A DNA stretch of 47,826 bases, taken from NCBI GenBank assembly GCA_028692545.1, contig JAQUXC010000003.1, positions 1 through 47,826 of the forward strand, read 5' to 3'. The stretch's first letter is position 1; each line of letters starts with the position of its first letter. Source of the stretch: Patescibacteria group bacterium (lineage in GTDB: Bacteria > Patescibacteriota > Patescibacteriia > UBA1558 > S5-K13). Of the stretch, positions 7,979 through 21,143 are shown in pieces. Position numbers and translations under genes: made by a program. The notes beneath the pieces are model-generated. The model did not search any database. It saw only the letters and a list, made by a program, of their open reading frames with translations, and was not told the DNA's origin.

Positions 7979-10573
7979 ATGACCCCTAATGTTCCAAAAT
8001 TCAAACAAGTTAGAAAAAGAGATGGAAATATAGAGAATTTTGATTATGATAAATTGAAAAATTCTATTTCAAAAAGCATAGCAGATGTGAGTAATGGAGA
8101 AATTGGTATAAGCGAAAAAGTATCAAATGAAGTTGTAGAAATTTTAAATAATAAGGCAGATGATAATGATTATACACCATCTGTTTTTGATATTAGAGAA
8201 GCAATACAAATTATTCTTATGCGTCATAATGAATTCAAAGCAGCTCAGGCTTATATTACACATAAACAAGATCCAAAATTTGCTTTGAAAATTCAAAAAG
8301 GAATACAAAATGTTATAAAAAGAGATGGGTCTATATCAGATTTTGATCTTTCTAAAATTAAGAAAGCAATTTCGAGAGCAGGGGAATCAAATCAGGCATT
8401 TGGTGAAAATATAGCTGAAGATATAGCAAATAAAGTATATGAAAGATTAAATAAAATTTATGATCAAATTATTCCAAATATAGAACAAATTCAAGATGTC
8501 GTAGAAATGGAGATAATGAAAGAGGGTTATTCAGATGTTGCAAAAGCATATATATTATATCGTATAGAACACAAAAAAATTAGAGAAAAACAACTTGAAA
8601 TATTGGGTGGTATGACTACGAATTTGAAGTTTACAGATAATGCATTAAAAGTTTTGGCAAAGAGATACTTGGTTAGAAATGAAGATGGCGAAATAATAGA
8701 AACACCTGAGGAAATGTTTAGAAGAGTGGCAAGGACACTTGCAAGAGTAGAGCAAAAATATGGTAAGGATGATAGTTTTATACAAAATTTAGAAGATAAA
8801 TTCTATGAAATAATGACTAATTTTGAGTTTAGTCCTGCTGGAAGAACAATTGCTAATGCAGGTGCTCCTACAAGACTTGTTTCAAATTGTATTGTTTTAA
8901 ATATTCAAGATGATATGGGTCATATTTTTGAAACACTCAAAGATGCATCACTACTTCAACAAGCTGGATCTGGACTTGGTTTTCCATTTCATCTTTTAAG
9001 ACCCGCTGGGAGTATAGCAAAAAAAACAAGAGGAGTGGCTTCGGGGCCGGTTTCATTTTTGAAAGTTTACAATAAAGCATTCGGTGTTATAAAACAACAA
9101 AATAGACATGGGGCGAATATGGGTGTAATGAGAGTAGATCATCCGGATATATTAGAGTTTATTCACTGTAAGGAAAAAGAAGGATCAATACGAAATTTTA
9201 ATATCTCAGTTGGTCTCACAGATGATTTTATGGAAAAAGTAAAAGAAAATGATAATATTCCATGGATGTGTAGATTTAGTGGTAAAGAAATGAAGCCAAG
9301 ACGTATTATAAGAGATGAATTTGATGTAATTCAAGAAATTAGAGAAGAAACAATGACAGCAAGAGAATTGTTTCAAGAAATTATAAATGCAGCATGGCAA
9401 AATGGTGAACCAGGTTGTGTATTTTTAGATACTGTAAATAAGACTAATCCACTTCCTGGACTTGGAAATATTGAAGCATGTAATCCATGTGGAGAGCAAT
9501 TTTTACATGATGGAGATGTGTGTAATTTAGGGTCTATACATCTTGGAAAGTTTGTAAAAGATGAGGAAGTAGATTTTTCTAGATTAAGAGATGTTATAAG
9601 ACTTTCAATTAGAATGCTTGATAATGTTATAGATCTTACAGATTTCCCAGTTGAAAGAGTTAGTGTAACCTTTAAAGGAAATAGAAGAATAGGTCTTGGA
9701 ATAATGGGATTTGGGGATATGCTTTATCAATTAAAAATAGGATACAATAGTTTAGAAGGAAGAGCTATAGCTGAGAGTGTTATGTCTTTTATAAATGAAG
9801 AATCTCATCAAATGTCATCAGAATTAGCTGAGGAAAAAGGTGTTTTTCCAAATTATGAAAAGAGTATTTATTATGTGGATGGTAAAAAAATGAGAAATGC
9901 AGCACTTACTACAATAGCTCCAACAGGTACTACAAGTATGCTTTTCAATTGTAGTAGTGGCGTAGAGCCATATTTTGCGCTTGCATATCATTACAAAGGA
10001 ATACTTGGATCAAATGATATAGAACTTTATTATACAAATCCTTATCTTGAAGAAGAATTAAAAAGAAGGGGATTATATACAAAAGAAATATTAAAACAAA
10101 TAGAAGAAGATGGTTCAATACAAAATATAAATACAATTCCAGAGGATATGAAAAAAGTATTTGTTACTTCTATGGATATTTCTGCAGAGGATCATATATT
10201 AATGCAAGCAGCTTTTCAAAAATATGTAGATAATAGCATATCAAAAACAGTAAATTTTCCAAACTCTGCTACCAAGGATGATGTGATGAAGGGATATATC
10301 CTTGCATGGGAAAAGGGTTGTAAAGGATGTACTGTATACAGAGATGGTTCAAGGGATATTCAAGTATTGAATTTAAATAAAGGCAAAAATGATGAAGCTA
10401 ACGATAATTTGATAAAAGAATATATTGATTCTCAGTCTAAGTCTAGTGCATCTTCAAAAACCAAAAAAGAAGTTATAAAAGATGGAATATGTCCTGAATG
10501 TGGTTCAAAAATAGAAATAAATGAGGGTTGTTATGTTTGTAAGAATTGTGGTTTCTCTGCTTGCTCACTTTAA
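7979..10573 (+). CDS. nrdJ: Adenosylcobalamin-dependent (class II) ribonucleoside-diphosphate reductase
   Basis: 864 aa. Two N-terminal ATP-cones (about 8-95 and 108-200, each starting KRDG), then the class II barrel. Active-site pattern: C304 (SNCIVLNI) as half of the redox pair, N502-P-C504-G-E506 as the thiyl-radical loop, C515 as the second redox Cys; the 2, 2 and 11-residue spacings match characterised NrdJ enzymes. APTGTTSML is the phosphate-binding loop. The C-terminus has two CxxC pairs (CPECG, CKNCG) and ends in CSL, the usual thiol-shuttling tail. It makes deoxynucleotides for DNA synthesis without oxygen requirement but needs coenzyme B12. The adenosyltransferase gene follows at 21 bp. 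The doubled ATP-cone suggests allosteric control by ATP/dATP. Confidence 0.96.
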   Translation: MTPNVPKFKQVRKRDGNIENFDYDKLKNSISKSIADVSNGEIGISEKVSNEVVEILNNKADDNDYTPSVFDIREAIQIILMRHNEFKAAQAYITHKQDPKFALKIQKGIQNVIKRDGSISDFDLSKIKKAISRAGESNQAFGENIAEDIANKVYERLNKIYDQIIPNIEQIQDVVEMEIMKEGYSDVAKAYILYRIEHKKIREKQLEILGGMTTNLKFTDNALKVLAKRYLVRNEDGEIIETPEEMFRRVARTLARVEQKYGKDDSFIQNLEDKFYEIMTNFEFSPAGRTIANAGAPTRLVSNCIVLNIQDDMGHIFETLKDASLLQQAGSGLGFPFHLLRPAGSIAKKTRGVASGPVSFLKVYNKAFGVIKQQNRHGANMGVMRVDHPDILEFIHCKEKEGSIRNFNISVGLTDDFMEKVKENDNIPWMCRFSGKEMKPRRIIRDEFDVIQEIREETMTARELFQEIINAAWQNGEPGCVFLDTVNKTNPLPGLGNIEACNPCGEQFLHDGDVCNLGSIHLGKFVKDEEVDFSRLRDVIRLSIRMLDNVIDLTDFPVERVSVTFKGNRRIGLGIMGFGDMLYQLKIGYNSLEGRAIAESVMSFINEESHQMSSELAEEKGVFPNYEKSIYYVDGKKMRNAALTTIAPTGTTSMLFNCSSGVEPYFALAYHYKGILGSNDIELYYTNPYLEEELKRRGLYTKEILKQIEEDGSIQNINTIPEDMKKVFVTSMDISAEDHILMQAAFQKYVDNSISKTVNFPNSATKDDVMKGYILAWEKGCKGCTVYRDGSRDIQVLNLNKGKNDEANDNLIKEYIDSQSKSSASSKTKKEVIKDGICPECGSKIEINEGCYVCKNCGFSACSL

Positions 10574-10593
10574 ATAATTTTTTGATATTATGT

Positions 10594-11115
10594 ATGGATA
10601 ATTTAGGGAAAATTCATATTTATACAGGAAATGGCAAAGGTAAAACCACAAGTGCTCTTGGGTTAGCATTACGAGCTAATTCTTCAGGATTTAGGGTAAT
10701 TATTATATATTTTGATAAATCAAGAGATAATTGTACTGAATATATAGGACTTGATAAATTAGGTATAGATTATAAATTCTTTGGTATTAATAGAATTTTT
10801 GATAATAAATTTAGATTTGGGTATAATGATAGTGATATAGGTGAGATTTCAAAAGCATGGAGTTTTGTAAAAAGTATAATTTTATCATCTGAATATGATT
10901 TAATAGTTCTAGATGAAATAATAAATTGTTTAGATTATATAGATATGAAAGAATTGGAATCAGTTTTGAAGTCAAACAATAAATCAGAACTTGTACTTAC
11001 AGGTAGGAATGCACCAGATAATATTATAGAATTAGCAGATTTGGTGACGGAAAATTTAGAAATAAAACACTATTTTCAAAAAAAATACCCTGCAAGAAAA
11101 GGAATAGAGTATTAA
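10594..11115 (+). CDS. cobO: Cob(I)alamin adenosyltransferase (CobA/CobO/BtuR family)
   Basis: 173 aa from the ATG at 10594. The frame extends upstream into the end of nrdJ, but the family begins here (MDNLGKIHIYTGNGKGKTTS). The family-specific P-loop GNGKGKTTSALGLALRA is intact, as are IVLDEIINCLD (Walker-B-like) and LVLTGRNAPD. It transfers the adenosyl group of ATP to reduced corrinoid, making the coenzyme that nrdJ needs. Other cobalamin biosynthesis genes are absent from the window, so it probably serves salvage. Confidence 0.93.
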   Translation: MDNLGKIHIYTGNGKGKTTSALGLALRANSSGFRVIIIYFDKSRDNCTEYIGLDKLGIDYKFFGINRIFDNKFRFGYNDSDIGEISKAWSFVKSIILSSEYDLIVLDEIINCLDYIDMKELESVLKSNNKSELVLTGRNAPDNIIELADLVTENLEIKHYFQKKYPARKGIEY

Positions 11116-11145
11116 TTTATATTTAAATTTTTATTTAATAAAATT

Positions 11146-11601
11146 ATGAAAAAATATCTAAGAATAGTTTTGATAATCATATCTGCTTTTGCAATATTTT
11201 TACTTGGAGCATATATGAGCCAGGAATATTTTTTGACATCAATACAAAAATCAGAAATTATTCCATCTTTTGATGAGAAAAGTAATAGTATAAGTTTGAT
11301 GATAGATTTTGGTGATGGAAATATAGAAACAATACACGATATAAATGTTAAGAGATCCGATAATTTATTATTAATACTTAAAGAATTAGAAAATACTAAA
11401 GATCAAATCAGAGATATAAAAATACAAGATTATGGAGAAATGGGGGTACTTATTACATCAATAAATGATTTTACAAATGGACAAAATAATAATTATTGGC
11501 AATATTATGTAAATAACAAACAGCCAATGTTAAGTATAGATAAATACATACTTTCTAATAAGGATGTCGTAGAATTAAAATTTACAAAATCTAAGTTTTA
11601 A
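11146..11601 (+). CDS. DUF4430 (transcobalamin-like C-terminal domain) exported protein
   Basis: 151 aa. An N-terminal signal-anchor (about 5-27, IVLIIISAFAIFLLGAYM) is followed by a domain with the DUF4430 pattern: SLMIDFGDG, a central NNYWQYYVNNKQP and a C-terminal YILSNKDVVELKF. DUF4430 is related to the beta-domain of transcobalamin and intrinsic factor, which closes over bound cobalamin. Placement after cobO and before a DUF6580/ECF-S-like protein suggests an extracellular cobalamin-binding role; that is inference. No lipobox cysteine is present, so it is probably membrane-anchored by its N-terminal helix. Confidence 0.78.
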   Translation: MKKYLRIVLIIISAFAIFLLGAYMSQEYFLTSIQKSEIIPSFDEKSNSISLMIDFGDGNIETIHDINVKRSDNLLLILKELENTKDQIRDIKIQDYGEMGVLITSINDFTNGQNNNYWQYYVNNKQPMLSIDKYILSNKDVVELKFTKSKF

Positions 11602-11613
11602 AATATAAAAAAT

Positions 11614-12171
11614 ATGAAAACCAGAGACAAAATAATCTTTGCCAGTTTGTTGATTTTATTAGCTATTTTTTCAAGACTCATACCCCATTTACCAAATTTT
11701 ACTCCAATAGCTGCAATATCTATATTTATTTCAGCATATATTTCCAAAAAGTATTTTTGGTTGCCTATTTTAGCATTATTTTTGTCAGATATATTTATCG
11801 GAACTTACGATATAAAACTTATGTCAGTTGTATATATTTCATTTATTATTATTGGTTTTTTTGGTTATTTTTTGAGAGAAAAAAGGAATATTTTTAGAAT
11901 TTTAGGGGTAAGTTTTTTTGGTTCTTTATTTTTTTTCTTAACTACAAATTTTGCGGTATGGATTACAAGTTCATGGTATGAAAGGAGTTTGTTTGGACTT
12001 TTGAATTGCTATGCATTCGCAATTCCATTTTTTCGAAATATGGTAATAGGTGATATATATTATCTTGGAATTATAATAACTTTGTTTGAATTTATATCTA
12101 ATAATGGCTATGAAAAAATAAAAATTGTATTTTTAAATTTTAAAAATAAAACAATAAGAGATATAATATAG
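11614..12171 (+). CDS. DUF6580 / ECF-transporter S-component-like membrane protein
   Basis: 185 aa with about five to six hydrophobic helices. The N-terminal RLIPHLPNFTPIAAISIF and LPILALFLSDIFIG, and the later TTNFAVWITSSWY, fit the DUF6580 family of S-component-like proteins. S components bind a vitamin and need the shared EcfT and EcfA subunits, which are not in this window. Position behind nrdJ, cobO and the transcobalamin-like protein points to cobalamin or a cobalamin precursor as substrate (inference). It is separated by 12 bp from the previous gene, hence one operon. Confidence 0.72.
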   Translation: MKTRDKIIFASLLILLAIFSRLIPHLPNFTPIAAISIFISAYISKKYFWLPILALFLSDIFIGTYDIKLMSVVYISFIIIGFFGYFLREKRNIFRILGVSFFGSLFFFLTTNFAVWITSSWYERSLFGLLNCYAFAIPFFRNMVIGDIYYLGIIITLFEFISNNGYEKIKIVFLNFKNKTIRDII

Positions 12172-12912: not shown

Positions 12913-13299
12913 TTGATGAGAAGTAGTAGCTTTTTATTAGATATATTAAAACTTATCTTTGTAGATATCATATGGAAAATAATTTATTTTCCTATTTGGT
13001 GGTATAGTAAAGGTTTTTTTGATTTACTTATAAATTTTATAGAAAAAGTCAAGAGGCAATCATATGCATTAGGAATTTTTATTGGTTTTAAATTTTTGTT
13101 TCGCCCAATGTATGCTCAAAATGATTTTTCTGGAAGAATTATAAGTTTTTTTATGAGATTGATTGTTTTAATTTTTAAGATTTTTATTTTTATTTTATTT
13201 TTAGTTGTTTTATTTTTTGGAGTTGCTATATATCTAGCATTGCCTGTGTTTGTGATATGGCAAATATATTTAAATTTTGTATATTTAAAAACAATATAA
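12913..13299 (+). CDS. Small integral membrane protein preceding the Clp-like ATPase
   Basis: 128 aa, with strongly hydrophobic stretches at about 7-30 and 75-120 separated by an amphipathic basic segment (IEKVKRQSYALG). The stop codon is immediately followed by the ATG of the Clp-like gene with no spacer, so the two are translationally coupled and probably work together, for instance as a membrane partner of the ATPase (inference). I recall similar pairs in other CPR genomes. The enzymatic function, if any, is unknown. Confidence 0.65.
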   Translation: MMRSSSFLLDILKLIFVDIIWKIIYFPIWWYSKGFFDLLINFIEKVKRQSYALGIFIGFKFLFRPMYAQNDFSGRIISFFMRLIVLIFKIFIFILFLVVLFFGVAIYLALPVFVIWQIYLNFVYLKTI

Positions 13300-15987
13300 A
13301 TGGATCTTTTAGACAAAAATAAAATACATATATGTGATAAATGTAATCTAGATGGTAGTTGTCATTTTTGTCGTGGTATGAAAAAATATATTATTTCTGG
13401 TAGTAGTGTTATCTTTTGGAATAAATTATATAATCAAAATAATATATATATTAATAAGATAAAAAGAATTATAAAAATATCTATAAATGTATTTTTTATA
13501 ATGTTTGCTATCTTTGGATTGATTTCATTTTTTTATCACATTTATATTTTGAATTTTAGTGGTTCGGATTTTTTTTATATAGAAAATTGGTTTAGTTTAT
13601 ATATGTTAGCTTTTTGGATAAGTGTATTTATAGATATGTTTTTATTTTATGAATTAAGAATAAACAGCAATAATATTGAAAAAGTTATAAATATAAAAGA
13701 AATTTCTATATCTGAAAATATTGATGTTCGAAAATTAAATAAAAAAGATATATATAATACACTTTCAAAAGATGTTAAAATCTTTCTTACAAAATCATAT
13801 GATATATCTAGAAAATATAAATCTAATTCAATAAACGCCTTGCATATATTTTATACAATACTTATAAATAAGGACATAAATATTATATTTGGAAGACTTG
13901 GTATAAATAAAGAGCTAATGAGACAAAAGGTTGAAAGACTTATAAAAATGAATAAATCACAGTTTGGAGATATTAATGATTTAGATCTTTTAATGTTTAA
14001 TAGTTATATCATAGCAAGTCGTGCCAAGAGTAAGTATATAAAAGTTTCTCATATTTTGTCAGCGCTCATACTTATAAATCAAAATATTTTAGATATATTT
14101 TTGGATGAAGGAATAGACTCAAATCAAGTCACAAATGTTATTACATGGATAAGGTTGAGAGATGAACTTGTAAATGTTTATAATAGATATAGATCAAAAT
14201 CCATATTCAAACCAAGAAATTCAATGAATAGAGCTATGACAGCTGTTGCTACTCCGTATTTAGATAGATTTAGTCAGGATTTGACTCAGCTTGCTCGTAA
14301 AGGTTATTTAGAGATTAGTGTTGCTAGAGAGTCAATTGTAGATGAAATTTATAGATCAATGGAGGTAGATAAAAAGAGTATAGTTTTATCAGGTTTACCA
14401 GGTGTTGGAAAGGATAATATTATTGAAGGAATAGCAAATAGAATGTGCGCCGAAGAAGTTCCTGAATTTTTTCAAGATAAGCGTTTAGTGAGTTTGTCTT
14501 TGTCTAGTATAATATCAGCATCTTCAAATGGATCTATAGAGCAAAATTTTATAAGAGCTATGACTGAGGTTATAAGAGCTGGTAATATAATACTTTTTAT
14601 AAATGATATACATAATTTAGTAGGAATAAGTTCAAGTGGTAGAGAAAATATAGATCTGTCAGAAATATTATCTGATATGATGAATAAATATGACATGATG
14701 ATAATAGGAACTACAAATCCGCATGATTTTACAAAATATTTAGAAAAAAATATTTTAGCAACTCAAATGTTAAAAGTAGAGATAAGAGAGCCTGATTTCA
14801 ATGAAATAGTTCAAATATTAGAATCAAAAACATTTTCTATAGAATATAAATATAGTGTTTATTTTTCCTATCAAGCAATAGAAAAAATAGTAAAACTTAC
14901 AGAAAGTTATATACATGACAGTTTTCAGCCATCAAAATCTATAAAAATTTTGGAAGAAGTCGCAATATATGTAAAAAATACAAAGGGTAAAAATAGATTA
15001 GTAACAGCTGAAGATGTAGCAAAATTAATATCTGAAAAAATTCATATGCCTCTTACAAGTATTACTCAGACAGAAAGTCAAAAATTAATGCATTTGGAGG
15101 ATTTAATGCATGAAAGAATTATTGGGCAAGATGAGGCGGTAAATATGGTTTCCTCGGCCCTTAGAAGAGCTAGGGCAGAGTTAAGGGATGAAGATAAGCC
15201 AATAACAAATTTATTATTTCTAGGACCTACTGGAGTTGGAAAAACAGAGCTTGCAAAAACTGTTGCTAAGATATTTTTTGGCACAGAAGATAGTATGATA
15301 AGACTTGATATGAGTGAATATCAAAATAAGGATAGTGTTTCCAGACTTATTGGTGTAGAAGGTTCTGAAGAAGGAGGAGTCCTTACAGAATCTGTTAGAA
15401 AAAAACCATTTTCTTTGGTTTTGCTAGATGAAATAGAAAAAGCACATCCAGATATACTCAATATATTTTTACAAGTTTTAGACGATGGACGACTTACTGA
15501 TACACTTGGAAATACAATAGATTTTTCAAATTGTATAATAATAGCTACATCAAATGCAGGATCTTTTTATATACAAGATGAACTATCAAAAGGCGTGGAA
15601 CTTGAAGTAATAAAACAATCCTTACTTGAAAAAGAACTTAGACCATATTTTAGGCCAGAATTTTTAAATCGTTTTAATGGAATAATATTATTTAAACCTT
15701 TGAATATAAAAGAGATAGAGCAAATTACAGTTTTGCTTTTACAAAAGGTAGCAAAAAAATTAGAAGTAAAAAATATAAACTTTGAAGCAACACAAGAGGC
15801 AGTAAAAGAACTTGCTCAAAAAGGATTTAGTCCTCAATTTGGAGCAAGACCACTTAAGAGAACGGTAGAGCAGAATGTAGATGATGCTTTGGCAAAGTTT
15901 TTACTCGCTGGTAAAATAGGTAGAAGAGACAAGGTAATACTTGAAAAGAATGGAAATATCAGGATAGAAAAGGCGGAAAAATTTTAA
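13300..15987 (+). CDS. Membrane-anchored ClpC/ClpB-like AAA+ ATPase with degenerate first ATPase domain
   Basis: 895 aa. N-terminal four-Cys cluster (C12, C15, C21, C24), two transmembrane helices (about 58-80 and 97-122), a Clp-N-like helical region (about 150-290), then two AAA+ modules. D2 is intact: Walker A GPTGVGKT (642-649), Walker B LVLLDEIEKAHP, and a C-terminal small domain with FGARPLKRTVEQ. D1 is degenerate: the P-loop reads GLPGVGKDN (365-373) with Asp where Thr/Ser binds Mg, Walker B reads FINDIH (N435-D436 in place of D-E), and the usual ERRF arginine-finger segment is replaced by ATQMLK. D1 may bind but probably does not hydrolyse ATP. This would be a membrane-bound unfoldase or disaggregase. 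No clpP is in the window. Confidence 0.88.
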   Translation: MDLLDKNKIHICDKCNLDGSCHFCRGMKKYIISGSSVIFWNKLYNQNNIYINKIKRIIKISINVFFIMFAIFGLISFFYHIYILNFSGSDFFYIENWFSLYMLAFWISVFIDMFLFYELRINSNNIEKVINIKEISISENIDVRKLNKKDIYNTLSKDVKIFLTKSYDISRKYKSNSINALHIFYTILINKDINIIFGRLGINKELMRQKVERLIKMNKSQFGDINDLDLLMFNSYIIASRAKSKYIKVSHILSALILINQNILDIFLDEGIDSNQVTNVITWIRLRDELVNVYNRYRSKSIFKPRNSMNRAMTAVATPYLDRFSQDLTQLARKGYLEISVARESIVDEIYRSMEVDKKSIVLSGLPGVGKDNIIEGIANRMCAEEVPEFFQDKRLVSLSLSSIISASSNGSIEQNFIRAMTEVIRAGNIILFINDIHNLVGISSSGRENIDLSEILSDMMNKYDMMIIGTTNPHDFTKYLEKNILATQMLKVEIREPDFNEIVQILESKTFSIEYKYSVYFSYQAIEKIVKLTESYIHDSFQPSKSIKILEEVAIYVKNTKGKNRLVTAEDVAKLISEKIHMPLTSITQTESQKLMHLEDLMHERIIGQDEAVNMVSSALRRARAELRDEDKPITNLLFLGPTGVGKTELAKTVAKIFFGTEDSMIRLDMSEYQNKDSVSRLIGVEGSEEGGVLTESVRKKPFSLVLLDEIEKAHPDILNIFLQVLDDGRLTDTLGNTIDFSNCIIIATSNAGSFYIQDELSKGVELEVIKQSLLEKELRPYFRPEFLNRFNGIILFKPLNIKEIEQITVLLLQKVAKKLEVKNINFEATQEAVKELAQKGFSPQFGARPLKRTVEQNVDDALAKFLLAGKIGRRDKVILEKNGNIRIEKAEKF

Positions 15988-16065: not shown

Positions 16066-17463
16066 ATGGCAAAATCAGAAATACACGAAAAAGACATGGA
16101 AAAAATCATTTCCCTTGCAAAAAGAAGGGGTTTTGTATACCCATCATCTGAAATATATGGTGGATTTGCAGCTATTTATGATTATGGTCCATATGGAGTA
16201 GAGCTTTTGAATAATATAAAAAAATATTGGTGGAAGTGGATGGTTCAATATAGAGAAGATATAGTAGGACTTGATAGTGCAATATTTATGCATCCAAAAA
16301 TTTGGGAAGCAAGTGGTCATGTATCGGGATTTTCTGATCCACTTTCTGAATGTAAAAAATGTCATCTTAGAATAAGAGTGGATACACTATTAGAGGATAT
16401 TGGAATTAGTGCTGATGAAAAAATGACTGAAGATGAAATAAATAAACTTTTTGATAATAATAAAAATAAAGTAAAATGTCCAGGTTGTGGTGCTAAAGAT
16501 TTTTCTGAAGCAAAAAAATTTAACCTTCTTGTAAAATCAAATCTTGGAAATTTTACGAATGATTGGGACAAAGAACCCTCTTATTTAAGAGGAGAAACAT
16601 GTCAGGGAATATATGTAAACTATAAAAATGTTTTGGATTCAACTCGAGTAAAAATTCCATTTGGTATAGCACAAATCGGAAAAGCTTTTAGAAATGAAAT
16701 TACTGCAAGGCAATTTATATTTAGGACAAGAGAATTTGAACAAATGGAAATGCAATATTTTACTAGTCCAGATTGTGATATGAGTGAATATGAAAAATTA
16801 AAAGAATATAGATGGAGGTTTTATATTGATATGGGATTTCAAGAGAAAAATCTTAAATGGCATAAGCATGAAAATTTGGTTTTTTATGCAAAAGAAGCAT
16901 ATGACATAGAATATAATTTTCCATTTGGTTTCAAGGAATTAGAAGGACTTCATGCAAGAGGAAACTATGATTTGTCTCAGCACTCCAAATTTTCCAAAAA
17001 AGATTTGTCTTATCAAGATCCAATAACAAATGAAAAATATATTCCTCACATAATAGAATCTTCAGTTGGTGTAAATAGAACATTTTTGGCAATTCTTACT
17101 GAGTTTTATGATGAAGATATTGCTGATGGAGAAACAAGATCAGTTTTGAGGTTAAAGCCAGAACTTGCTCCTGTGAAAGTAGCAATATTTCCACTTTTGA
17201 AAAACAAACCAGAACTTATAGAAAAAGCTAAAAGTATTTTTGATGAACTCAAAAAAGATTATATGTGCGAATTTGATACAAATGGAAATATAGGAAAAAG
17301 ATATAGACGACAGGATGAAATAGGAACGCCATATTGCATAACAATAGATTTTGAAACAATTACAAATAATGATGTAACTATAAGAGACAGAGATACTATG
17401 GAACAGACAAGAATATCTGTTCATAAATTAAGTGATTATTTAAGGAATAAAATAAAAAATTAA
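16066..17463 (+). CDS. glyQS: Glycine--tRNA ligase (dimeric alpha2, class II)
   Basis: 465 aa, normal length for the single-chain bacterial/archaeal type. GFVYPSSEIYGG is the N-terminal signature; motif 2 is around FRNEITARQFIFRTREFEQ; motif 3 includes the GVNRTFLAIL region. A Cys4 insertion (CKKC near 92 and CPGC near 144) is the expected zinc insertion of this type. The C-terminal anticodon-binding domain begins near 365 (APVKVAIFPL). It charges tRNA-Gly. It stands alone after the Clp gene, with no obvious -35/-10 pair upstream. Confidence 0.95.
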   Translation: MAKSEIHEKDMEKIISLAKRRGFVYPSSEIYGGFAAIYDYGPYGVELLNNIKKYWWKWMVQYREDIVGLDSAIFMHPKIWEASGHVSGFSDPLSECKKCHLRIRVDTLLEDIGISADEKMTEDEINKLFDNNKNKVKCPGCGAKDFSEAKKFNLLVKSNLGNFTNDWDKEPSYLRGETCQGIYVNYKNVLDSTRVKIPFGIAQIGKAFRNEITARQFIFRTREFEQMEMQYFTSPDCDMSEYEKLKEYRWRFYIDMGFQEKNLKWHKHENLVFYAKEAYDIEYNFPFGFKELEGLHARGNYDLSQHSKFSKKDLSYQDPITNEKYIPHIIESSVGVNRTFLAILTEFYDEDIADGETRSVLRLKPELAPVKVAIFPLLKNKPELIEKAKSIFDELKKDYMCEFDTNGNIGKRYRRQDEIGTPYCITIDFETITNNDVTIRDRDTMEQTRISVHKLSDYLRNKIKN

Positions 17464-17473
17464 TATAAAAAAT

Positions 17474-18814
17474 ATGAAAAAAATATTTAAAATAAAATTT
17501 ATATTGTTTATATTTTTATTGTTTTTTGTTTTTGATATAAATATATTAAATGCCCAATATGTAGATCAGCCCTGTTCAAATTTTGCTGGGGCTGAGTGTG
17601 TTTGGCAGCCAAATGTTTTTCAATATGAAATTATACAACATTCTGTATGTCCAGATACATCCCAAACATGCGTTAGAAGGCGTCCAAATTGTACAGGGGA
17701 GTGTAGACAATCTTATAATTGTCAAAACCAAATATTAGGTTTTTGTGATGGTACTATAAATACAAGTTGTTGTGGTGGTAATATGACAGCGGAACAGCAA
17801 GCTAGCGCAGAACGAATATTAGCACAACAAAGACAACCAGTTTGTCTAGAGGGTCAAATATATTTAGAAGTACCAATCCCAGGACTTGGAAAATGTGTAG
17901 ACGATTTTAGCGATTATATGATAAAATTATATGATTATCTTGTGTATCTTGCAGGAGTACTTGCCGTTGTAGTAATAATGATAGGTGGGTTTCAATGGGT
18001 TTCAGCAGGAGGAAATCAAAGTAAAATAGGTGAAGCAAAAGAAAGAATAAGTGGGGCTATAATAGGACTTGTTTTAGCAATTGGATCGTATTTAATATTA
18101 GATACTATAAATCCAAATTTATTAAGCATGAGGATGCCAAGCGTTAGAAATATATCAGCAGTTCCTATTAGATTTAGTACGGAGGAACATATGAATTCAA
18201 GAGCTGCAGCAATAGCGGATAATATAACTTGTAATAGTAATATTGAATGTTCTAGATATGACAGAATTTGTGCACCAAGAAGGTCAGATAATGTTAATCA
18301 AAAAATATGTATGAATCAGAGTTATGACAATGGTCAGTGTGATGAAGATGAAGATTGTCTCCAAGGCTTAATATGTAATATGTCTAGTTATCAATGTGCT
18401 GTTCCTGATATATTAAAATGTATTGGTCAAACAGATTTAGGAGCAAGATGTTTTCAGTCATTATATCCTTTGGTATCAGGATATTGTACGAGTGGTAATA
18501 GATGTACACTTTGCAACAACTCAGGTGCGGATTGTAGTATTGGAATACTTGGTAATGTAATATCTACAGATTTGTTTGCAGACAATGATTCAATATGTAT
18601 GGATCAGTATGAGGTTTGTGGACAAATAAATAGGTTAACTACTAGAGAAGAATTCCATAATTTGCCCCCCGTATATAAACAACAACCCGCAGGTAATTGT
18701 ATAAAAAATTGTTCATCAGGAGTGGGTGGAGTTGTTGGAGCTGCAATGACTACTCTTATTCATGTAGGATCATATGTTCCATTAATGAATATATGTACAT
18801 ATAATTGTAAGTAG
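17474..18814 (+). CDS. T4SS-pilin-like (TrbC/VirB2 type) Cys-rich exported protein
   Basis: 446 aa. Signal peptide (about 1-27, ending NAQ), a Cys-rich segment (about 30-125), then a two-helix segment (about 150-215) matching the TrbC/VirB2-type pilin domain: GVLAVVVIMIGGFQWVSAGG, a KIGEAKERISGAIIG loop and a second hydrophobic helix. The remaining 230 residues are again Cys-rich (CNSNIECSRYDRIC, CDEDEDCLQGLICN, CSIG). Such pilin domains within longer Cys-rich proteins are known from CPR genomes and are thought to sit in the envelope; no other T4SS genes are present, so a conjugation role is not supported. It begins 10 bp after glyQS. Confidence 0.75.
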   Translation: MKKIFKIKFILFIFLLFFVFDINILNAQYVDQPCSNFAGAECVWQPNVFQYEIIQHSVCPDTSQTCVRRRPNCTGECRQSYNCQNQILGFCDGTINTSCCGGNMTAEQQASAERILAQQRQPVCLEGQIYLEVPIPGLGKCVDDFSDYMIKLYDYLVYLAGVLAVVVIMIGGFQWVSAGGNQSKIGEAKERISGAIIGLVLAIGSYLILDTINPNLLSMRMPSVRNISAVPIRFSTEEHMNSRAAAIADNITCNSNIECSRYDRICAPRRSDNVNQKICMNQSYDNGQCDEDEDCLQGLICNMSSYQCAVPDILKCIGQTDLGARCFQSLYPLVSGYCTSGNRCTLCNNSGADCSIGILGNVISTDLFADNDSICMDQYEVCGQINRLTTREEFHNLPPVYKQQPAGNCIKNCSSGVGGVVGAAMTTLIHVGSYVPLMNICTYNCK

Positions 18815-18843
18815 TTATATTTTAATTTGTCGTTCGTATTTTT

Positions 18844-20085
18844 ATGAAGAATATTTTTTATAAAAAATTAAATGATACTCAGGCGGTCACAGTTTTGGTA
18901 CTTGTAAAAACTGGGTCTAGATATGAGAATGACAAAAATAGAGGAGTAGCTCATTTTATAGAGCATCTTCTTTTTAAAGGTACAAAAAAAAGACCAAACT
19001 CTCTTAGTATTACAAAAGAACTTGATGGAATAGGTGCTGAGTACAATGCCTTTACAACAAAAGACAAAACTGGCTATTATATAAAAGCATCAAAAGAAAA
19101 TTTGGAATTGGCTCTTGATATTTTGTCTGATATGTTGTTCCATTCCAAATTTGATTTAAAGGAAATAAATAGAGAAAGAGGTGTGGTTTTAGAAGAGTTC
19201 AATATGTATTTTGATAATCCTATAATGTTTTTAGATGATTTATTAGAGGCAAGTATTTTTGATAAACATAGCTTGGGAAAATTGACTCTTGGAGAAAAGG
19301 AAATAATAAAAAATATAAAAAGAGATGAGATTTTGAAATTTTACAAAAAATATTACAAACCAGAAAATATGATAATAGGAGTTGCTGGAAATTTTTCTGA
19401 TGATATAGAAAAAATTGTAAAAAAATATTTTAAAATTACAAACTTTGGTACAAAAAAAACTTTTGATTTATTCAAGTCATCTCAAGAAGAATTGAGATTG
19501 TCGTGCATGAATAAGGATACAGATCAAATTCACGTAGCTATTGGATTTCTTAGTGTTTCTTGTTTTGATAAAGATTTTTATTCATTAAAATTACTTTCAA
19601 TAATACTAGGAGCAAATATGAGTTCTAGATTGTTTGTTAGAATGAGAGAGCAATTGGGGCTTTGTTATTATATTCGTTCAAATAGTGATAATTATGAGGA
19701 TACTGGAGCTTTTTCTATAACAGCAGGACTTGATAAAAATAAGATTGAAAGTGCGATAAGTAATATATTTTTAGAAATAGAAAAAATAAAAGCTAAAAAA
19801 GTTAGCCAAGAGGAACTTAAAAGAGCAAAGGAATTTTTGAAAGGTAAATTGGTTTTGAAAATGGAGGATAGTGAAAATGTTGTAGATTGGCATTGTGAGA
19901 GACTTTTATTTTATAACAAAGATATGAGTGTTGAGGATATGATTTCTAATTTTAATAAAATAAGCTCTGATGATATACTTAAAATAGCAAACAAAATATT
20001 TAAGAAAAGTAAAATAAATATAGCTATAATAGGATCAGAAGATATAAAACATAAAATTTCAAATATAATAAAAAAATTAAAATAA
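18844..20085 (+). CDS. M16 family zinc peptidase
   Basis: 413 aa. The inverted zinc motif HFIEH is at residues 37-41, with the third ligand E117 in RERGVVLEEF at the expected 76-residue distance, so this is the catalytic half. The C-terminal M16 domain contains LSIILGANMSSRLFVRMREQLGLCYYI (split: SSRLFVRMRE and GLCYYI), the R/Y-type substrate-cleft motif. It is a mitochondrial-processing-peptidase/PqqL-like single-module enzyme that degrades or processes short peptides; no signal peptide is present, so it is probably cytoplasmic. A palindromic repeat follows the stop. Confidence 0.9.
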   Translation: MKNIFYKKLNDTQAVTVLVLVKTGSRYENDKNRGVAHFIEHLLFKGTKKRPNSLSITKELDGIGAEYNAFTTKDKTGYYIKASKENLELALDILSDMLFHSKFDLKEINRERGVVLEEFNMYFDNPIMFLDDLLEASIFDKHSLGKLTLGEKEIIKNIKRDEILKFYKKYYKPENMIIGVAGNFSDDIEKIVKKYFKITNFGTKKTFDLFKSSQEELRLSCMNKDTDQIHVAIGFLSVSCFDKDFYSLKLLSIILGANMSSRLFVRMREQLGLCYYIRSNSDNYEDTGAFSITAGLDKNKIESAISNIFLEIEKIKAKKVSQEELKRAKEFLKGKLVLKMEDSENVVDWHCERLLFYNKDMSVEDMISNFNKISSDDILKIANKIFKKSKINIAIIGSEDIKHKISNIIKKLK

Positions 20086-20119
20086 TCCCGCAAAGCGGGG
20101 CAACCTAGCAGAACGGGAT
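20085..20119. repeat. CCCGC-AAA-GCGGG palindrome with outer ATCCCG/CGGGAT arms
   Basis: CCCGC (20087-20091), loop AAA, GCGGG (20095-20099); an outer ATCCCG (20085-20090) also pairs with CGGGAT (20114-20119). It is one of four copies of a short G/C-rich palindrome in the window (also 31258, 36211, 39812). It may act as a weak terminator of the M16 gene, but no T-run follows. Confidence 0.75.
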
Positions 20120-20129
20120 AAGAAAAAAT

Positions 20130-21143
20130 ATGGAAGAAGATAAAAAAATTATTGATATTTCTACGCTTACATTTGTAAAAATAATAGTAATATTGGTAGC
20201 AATAGGATTTATTTTGATAATAAAAGAAGTAATACTTTTGATATTTTTGGCCCTTATTTTGGCATCAGCTTTCAATCCACTTATATCATGGTTGCACGAG
20301 AGAAAAATTCCTAAAACACTAAGTGTATTATTAGTTTATATTACATTTTCATCTGTAATTATTGTTACAATATTACTTACAATACCTCCTGTGACAGATC
20401 AATTTGGTCAACTTATTAAATTGTTTCCAGGGTATTATCAAAAAATGTCTCAATTCTTTATAAATTATATGTCTACAGGGACTACCCCTATTAACTCTAG
20501 TTTAAGTAGTAATGTAGGAAATAGTATAGGTGGAATTGTTGGTTCTATATTTTCGACAACATTCCAAATTTTTGGTGGTATATTTGCTTTTATTACTGTA
20601 CTTATTATGTCTTTTTATTTTGCTATAGAAGAAAATGCTATAAAGAAGTTTGTAAATAGTATAATTCCAAGCAAACATCAACCATATGTGGTAAATTTAT
20701 TTTCCAAGATACAAGAAAAGTTGGGTCAATGGTTTAGAGGACAAATAATATTATCTCTTATAATATTTGTAATTACTTTTATTGGATTGATGCTTTTAGG
20801 AGTAAGATATTATTTGATTTTGGCAATTTTGGCTGGAGTTTTTGAAATAATTCCTTATTTTGGTCCATGGATATCTGGTGGTGTAGCTGTATTTCTTGCA
20901 TTTACACAAGATCCTATGAAAGCCCTTTTTGTAGCAATTTTATATTTAGTAATTCAACAATTGGAAAATAGTATAATAGTTCCAAAGGTAATGGGAAAAT
21001 CAATAGGGCTAAATCCACTTGTAGTTATAATAGCAATACTTGTTGGTTTCAAGTTGGCAGGAGTAGTTGGTGGTTTGATTGCAGTTCCTATTGCTGCAGC
21101 TATCTCTGTTTTTGTGACAGATTTTTTAGATAAAAGAGCATAA
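20130..21143 (+). CDS. AI-2E family transporter
   Basis: 337 aa with about eight hydrophobic segments. Typical family features: an N-terminal paired helix (FVKIIVILVAIGFILIIKEV), LASAFNPLISWLHERKIPKTL, the central periplasmic helical region and the C-terminal GVFEIIPYFGPWISGG, plus QQLENSIIVPKVMG and GLNPLVVIIAILVG. The family (YdiK/TqsA/YhhQ relatives) includes autoinducer-2 exporters and Na+/H+ antiporters; substrate cannot be assigned. It is two bases upstream of rsmI, so co-transcribed. Confidence 0.9.
   Translation: MEEDKKIIDISTLTFVKIIVILVAIGFILIIKEVILLIFLALILASAFNPLISWLHERKIPKTLSVLLVYITFSSVIIVTILLTIPPVTDQFGQLIKLFPGYYQKMSQFFINYMSTGTTPINSSLSSNVGNSIGGIVGSIFSTTFQIFGGIFAFITVLIMSFYFAIEENAIKKFVNSIIPSKHQPYVVNLFSKIQEKLGQWFRGQIILSLIIFVITFIGLMLLGVRYYLILAILAGVFEIIPYFGPWISGGVAVFLAFTQDPMKALFVAILYLVIQQLENSIIVPKVMGKSIGLNPLVVIIAILVGFKLAGVVGGLIAVPIAAAISVFVTDFLDKRA

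Follow-up and report, generated by a model that had tools for sequence, protein, structure and literature searches.

A gene pair of Patescibacteria appears to encode a membrane-anchored Clp machine that has retained its motor and lost the parts that grip the substrate, the latter being the main point beyond the original prediction. The pair is read here, with a probability of roughly 55%, as a two-gene membrane remodeller in which strokes of the second AAA+ domain (D2) would move a membrane-side layer without threading and without ClpP. The window, that is the whole stretch of DNA analysed, comprises bases 1-47826 of one contig; the genome amounts to 1.07 Mb in 23 contigs and is 99.4% complete. 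The following features were assigned.

12916..13299, + strand: small membrane partner, 127 aa (ATG 12916) or 128 aa (TTG 12913); from profile A1, adjacency, natural fusions and model helices
13300..15987, + strand: membrane Clp/HSP100 ATPase, 895 aa; from the open reading frame, an AF2 model of pLDDT 88.9 and a PDB fold match to ClpC/ClpB
13333..13371, + strand: Cys4 cluster CDKCNLDGSCHFC, residues 12-24, C-x2-C-x5-C-x2-C
13459..13647, + strand: two predicted transmembrane (TM) helices, residues about 54-78 and 98-116; from hydropathy and model helices
13738..14208, + strand: Clp N-domain-like region, residues about 147-303; from a weak Pfam Clp_N match at 238-281 and a model that aligns to ClpC from residue 150
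14251..14997, + strand: D1 AAA+ domain, predicted pseudo-ATPase, residues 318-566; Walker A GKD, Walker B ND, without Arg finger and without KYRG pore loop
14998..15987, + strand: D2 AAA+ domain, residues 567-895; intact catalytic residues, a shortened pore loop 1 that lacks GYVG, and no ClpP loop

The frame 13300-15987 is uninterrupted and its ATG immediately follows the TAA of a 128-aa open reading frame. A promoter and terminator scan gave a signal no higher than in shuffled sequence. By sequence, the nearest solved relatives of the ATPase are ClpC and ClpB, and the AlphaFold model (pLDDT 88.9) matches both over residues 150-894, tightly across D1 and D2. Pfam assigned AAA_2 and ClpB_D2-small in D2, and only an AAA lid above the cut-off in D1. 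The ATPase has Clp-type D1 and D2 domains in the order typical of the two-ring HSP100/Clp superfamily. The best matches listed for it are all Clp-type; Pex1/Pex6 have classical-AAA D1/D2 and double-psi N-domains. ClpC (S. aureus, B. subtilis; PDB 6em9, 9gi1, 7abr), which ranks first by sequence and near the top by fold, shares the order of Clp N-domain, D1 and D2, whereas the membrane Clp adds a TM hairpin and the Cys4 cluster in front, as well as a small membrane partner. The model places helices at residues 46-87 and 100-124, at the predicted TM stretches. The Cys4-type cluster occurs in 34 of 48 members of the window protein's class and is missing from homologues fused to the partner; from its distribution it is taken as accessory. 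FtsH is a membrane-anchored AAA+ protein with N-terminal TM helices as well, but it combines a single AAA+ ring with a protease of its own.

Translation of the small membrane partner more probably begins with the ATG at 12916 than with the TTG at 12913. The protein has a YFP-x-WWYS motif, followed by two long helices around the turn LF-x-PM-[YF]-x-Q-x-D-x2-GR-x-ISFFMR. In the predicted structure the helices span residues 3-53 and 72-116, on either side of the conserved PM-x-x-Q-x-D turn, positions taken from a joint model of partner and ATPase across the stop codon, in whose alignment the last partner helix is partly misplaced. A sequence profile search of the PDB gave no relative of the partner at E up to 1, and Pfam returned weak scattered matches only. 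A partner homologue lies directly upstream of the ATPase in nearly every locus, often with an overlap of 4 or about 13 bases, and the partner domain shares one frame with the ATPase in about 30 genomes. The partner is N-terminal in all 20 fused loci checked and the genes lie side by side in all 19 unfused ones; the tree implies that fusion or fission took place no fewer than three to five times. Among 287 sampled Patescibacteria, the partner profile A1 (built from 50 homologues) was detected in 174 genomes and the ATPase profile (threshold E 1e-160) in 172, with both in 169, the partner only in 5, the ATPase only in 3 and neither in 110 (Fisher p 7e-69, relatedness of the genomes uncorrected). 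The pair is thereby present in about 60% of this phylum-wide sample. Part of the disagreement is a threshold effect, because one of the five partner-only genomes (G247) shows a fused-length frame. In seven Verrucomicrobiota-group genomes the partner profile was empty, as expected, which is a weak negative control. A chance neighbour was rejected on adjacency, fusions and co-occurrence. Gene fusion plus synteny constitute strong evidence, at the level of sequence, that partner and ATPase act together.

The condition of the two AAA+ domains was compared in an alignment of 95 full-length Patescibacterial homologues (48 in the window protein's class, 20 fused and 27 split outside it) and, as controls, 20 canonical Clp ATPases that 18 of these genomes also encode. 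D1 of the window protein has the Walker A GLPGVGKD, the Walker B ILFINDIH and, at the Arg-finger site, TQM, the corresponding residues in the ClpC of the same genome being RRF. The D2 motifs are GPTGVGKTE, LLDEIE, FRPEFLNRF and GARPL. Every D1 and D2 motif is present in 20/20 canonical controls. All 95 homologues retain in D2 the Walker A Lys and Thr, the Walker B Asp and Glu, the Arg finger, the sensor-1 Asn and the sensor-2 Arg, and none of them has a complete D1 motif set. Within the class, D1 Walker A and B are both intact in 0/48; the Walker B Glu is kept in 1, the Walker A Thr/Ser in 19, the Lys in 43 and the second Arg in none. Outside it, 11/20 fused and 5/27 split homologues keep D1 Walker A and B without the Arg finger, and six split homologues have an Arg at the D1 finger position with Walker motifs that are not intact. 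In a FastTree tree with local supports, from which the trait columns were excluded, the membrane Clp family forms one clade apart from canonical Clp with support 100, and the window protein's class one clade with support 98. A recent D1 mutation or an assembly error was rejected, as the decay is common to the whole class. Because Walker A and B of D1 often persist in distant fused homologues, D1 is seen to have decayed progressively within an old family, and the one-motor state is therefore not family-wide.

The original prediction had described a D1 that reads GKD and ND and lacks an Arg finger, an intact D2, an N-terminal Cys4 cluster with two TM helices, membrane association and coupling to the 128-aa membrane protein. 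All of these were recovered, the membrane association as a prediction and the coupling from synteny, co-occurrence and gene fusions. A single working ring was supported for the class. The refuting case named there, an intact D1 in homologues of related genomes, did not arise within the class (0/48), and D1 is nowhere complete in the family (0/95), but 11/20 distant fused proteins keep Walker A and B. The free drift of D1 motifs inside the class would also be expected of a decaying relict without specific function, but this reading is highly improbable given the invariance of D2 in 95/95, the mostly intact frames, the conserved partner and the fact that the two genes occur together so consistently, in about 60% of the phylum sample.

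When aligned to S. aureus ClpC, the window protein lacks the D1 KYRG and has a 4-residue deletion over the D2 GYVG. The canonical controls all have GY[VI]G in D2 and [KMI][YF]RG in D1. Of the 95 homologues, 89 have no aromatic residue in pore loop 1 of D2 and 93 have lost the D1 pore Tyr, in both cases with the window protein included; a Tyr/Phe remains in the D2 loop of 6/95 (about 6%; L029, L071, L072 and L101 among them) and an aromatic in the D1 loop of 2/95. The window protein does not have the aromatic pore loop 1 in its active ring that is characteristic of threading AAA+ proteins. Classical threading by the membrane Clp is unlikely, because the gripping tyrosines are gone from both loops, and the term "unfoldase" in the original prediction was not supported by the comparison, with the pore tyrosines of D1 and D2 missing in the window protein and in more than 90% of homologues. 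Threading may be ancestral in the family, since about 6% of its members retain the D2 loop aromatic, and a non-aromatic D2 loop might be able to grip all the same. In three fused homologues (L101, L104 and L087) Walker A of D1 is preserved and Walker B nearly so, with SYF at the Arg-finger site; they have PPGYPGY or PPGQ[VA]GY as D2 pore loop, apparently a halfway stage in the loss of that loop.

A membrane-embedded threading unfoldase or extractor, in which D2 would pull membrane proteins via non-aromatic loops and D1 would serve as a passive funnel, has a precedent in Pex1/Pex6, which have an inactive D1 and an active D2 and thread by D2 alone (PMC9265785). The likeness extends to two rings and a membrane partner (PMC9265785), and the complete D2 catalytic set and the GY-like loops kept in a few homologues are in line with it. 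Yet the Pex1/Pex6 D2 loops are aromatic (PMC9265785), whereas none is found in 89/95 homologues here, the window protein included, which makes this reading rather unlikely. Pex1/Pex6 further differ in belonging to the classical AAA family, in forming a heterohexamer and in being eukaryotic.

The ClpP-docking [ILV]G[FL] loop in D2 was found in 0/99 membrane Clp sequences, compared with clear docking loops in 14/20 canonical Clp proteins from the same genomes. The genome of the window encodes one ClpP, an FtsH and a ClpC of canonical type whose docking loop has IGF (SIGF); clpC and clpP sit on another contig than the membrane Clp gene pair. No M-domain was found in the ATPase, whose D1-D2 linker of 62 residues is too short for the coiled-coil, as compared with 122 residues in the ClpC of the same genome and 183-184 in the longer canonical controls. 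ClpC and ClpA have two catalytically complete rings, whereas D1 is incomplete in all 95 homologues. Compared with ClpC, the membrane Clp has a D1 that appears dead and lacks pore-loop tyrosines, ClpP loop and M-domain. ClpB/Hsp104 likewise have no ClpP loop, and the D2 aligns to that of ClpB with 47-50% identity and an rmsd of 1.4-2 Å, but the membrane Clp differs from them by its missing coiled-coil M-domain, its membrane anchor, its inactive D1 and its lost pore loops. By its sequence features the membrane Clp is built neither as a ClpP partner nor as a ClpB disaggregase. The original prediction, which had argued against a ClpC-ClpP partner and proposed a search for docking loops and clpP, agrees with this: clpP is in the genome, and the docking loop is in none of the 99 membrane Clp sequences. 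The presence of ClpC and ClpP, together with the relatedness of the D2 domains, could suggest that the membrane Clp recruits the ClpCP protease to the membrane or acts as a regulator in mixed rings with the cell's own ClpC. This is improbable in view of the missing ClpP loop, the separate clade of the membrane Clp and its own partner and gene pair on a contig other than that of clpC and clpP.

In the preferred reading of a membrane remodeller driven by D2, six copies of the ATPase would form a ring on the cytosolic membrane face and ATP would be hydrolysed by D2, while D1 would be a passive ring coupling D2 to the N-domains, the TM helices and the small partner. The power strokes of D2 would then rearrange the layer of N-domains, TM helices and partner along with the cargo held there, a membrane protein or lipid; no chain would be threaded through the pore and ClpP would not be involved. 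Two ways of working are described for AAA+ machines, the pulling of chains by pore loops and the movement of N-terminal domains (PMC9265785), and the latter is favoured here because the pore-loop route has apparently been given up. The nearest precedent is Torsin, which is related to Clp but lacks the pore-loop motifs, works together with membrane proteins and is probably not a threading machine (PMC6646356). TorsinA with LAP1/LULL1 resembles the membrane Clp in being a Clp relative without pore-loop consensus that pairs with a membrane protein (PMC6646356), but differs by its single AAA+ domain, its location in the ER lumen and its need for an external activator, the D2 of the membrane Clp having its own Arg finger. 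The likeness is limited to the working principle, the membrane Clp being bacterial and having two AAA+ domains. More tentatively, the family may represent a Clp machine that has wholly abandoned threading, a membrane-anchored single-motor HSP100 that, together with its own hairpin partner, would remodel membrane proteins or the membrane itself by a Torsin-like principle and be a core component in many CPR lineages.

Genomes of Patescibacteria are about 1 Mb in size and contain few dispensable genes. The pair is widespread in this small-genome phylum, yet its partner has no Pfam or PDB match; related sequences come from Komeilibacteria, Falkowbacteria, Uhrbacteria and others, which places the family in Patescibacteria. 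No description of a membrane Clp in Patescibacteria, or of this pair, was found in the open-access literature. If threading is indeed absent, the family would be a natural test of an HSP100 motor without pore loops, a question mainly tied to Torsin so far. It is also a warning that Patescibacterial proteins matching ClpC or ClpB models may be neither ClpP partners nor disaggregases. In a pattern scan of species genomes, the only matches beyond Patescibacteria and records titled only "bacterium" were Verrucomicrobiota-group frames matching D2. These 311-315-aa frames (L056-L062) match D2 alone, with 36-40% identity, and are possibly single-ring Clp proteins. In three genomes a second protein was detected with the membrane-Clp profile at E 1e-160 (G191:C9, G236:C1 and G342:C10), possibly a paralogue.

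Downstream of the Clp gene, at 16066-21143, lie genes for GlyRS, an M16 peptidase and an AI-2E family transporter, in an order shared by several related loci. The gene at 17474-18814 encodes a Cys-rich protein of 446 aa that looks secreted and carries a T4SS_pilin domain; its conservation is weak in the closest relatives. Upstream, at 7979-12171, a gene for a ribonucleotide reductase with ATP cones precedes genes for a corrinoid adenosyltransferase (CobA/BtuR), a protein with DUF4430 and a membrane protein with DUF6580; the set looks like a B12-dependent ribonucleotide reductase with a cobalamin salvage or uptake cassette.
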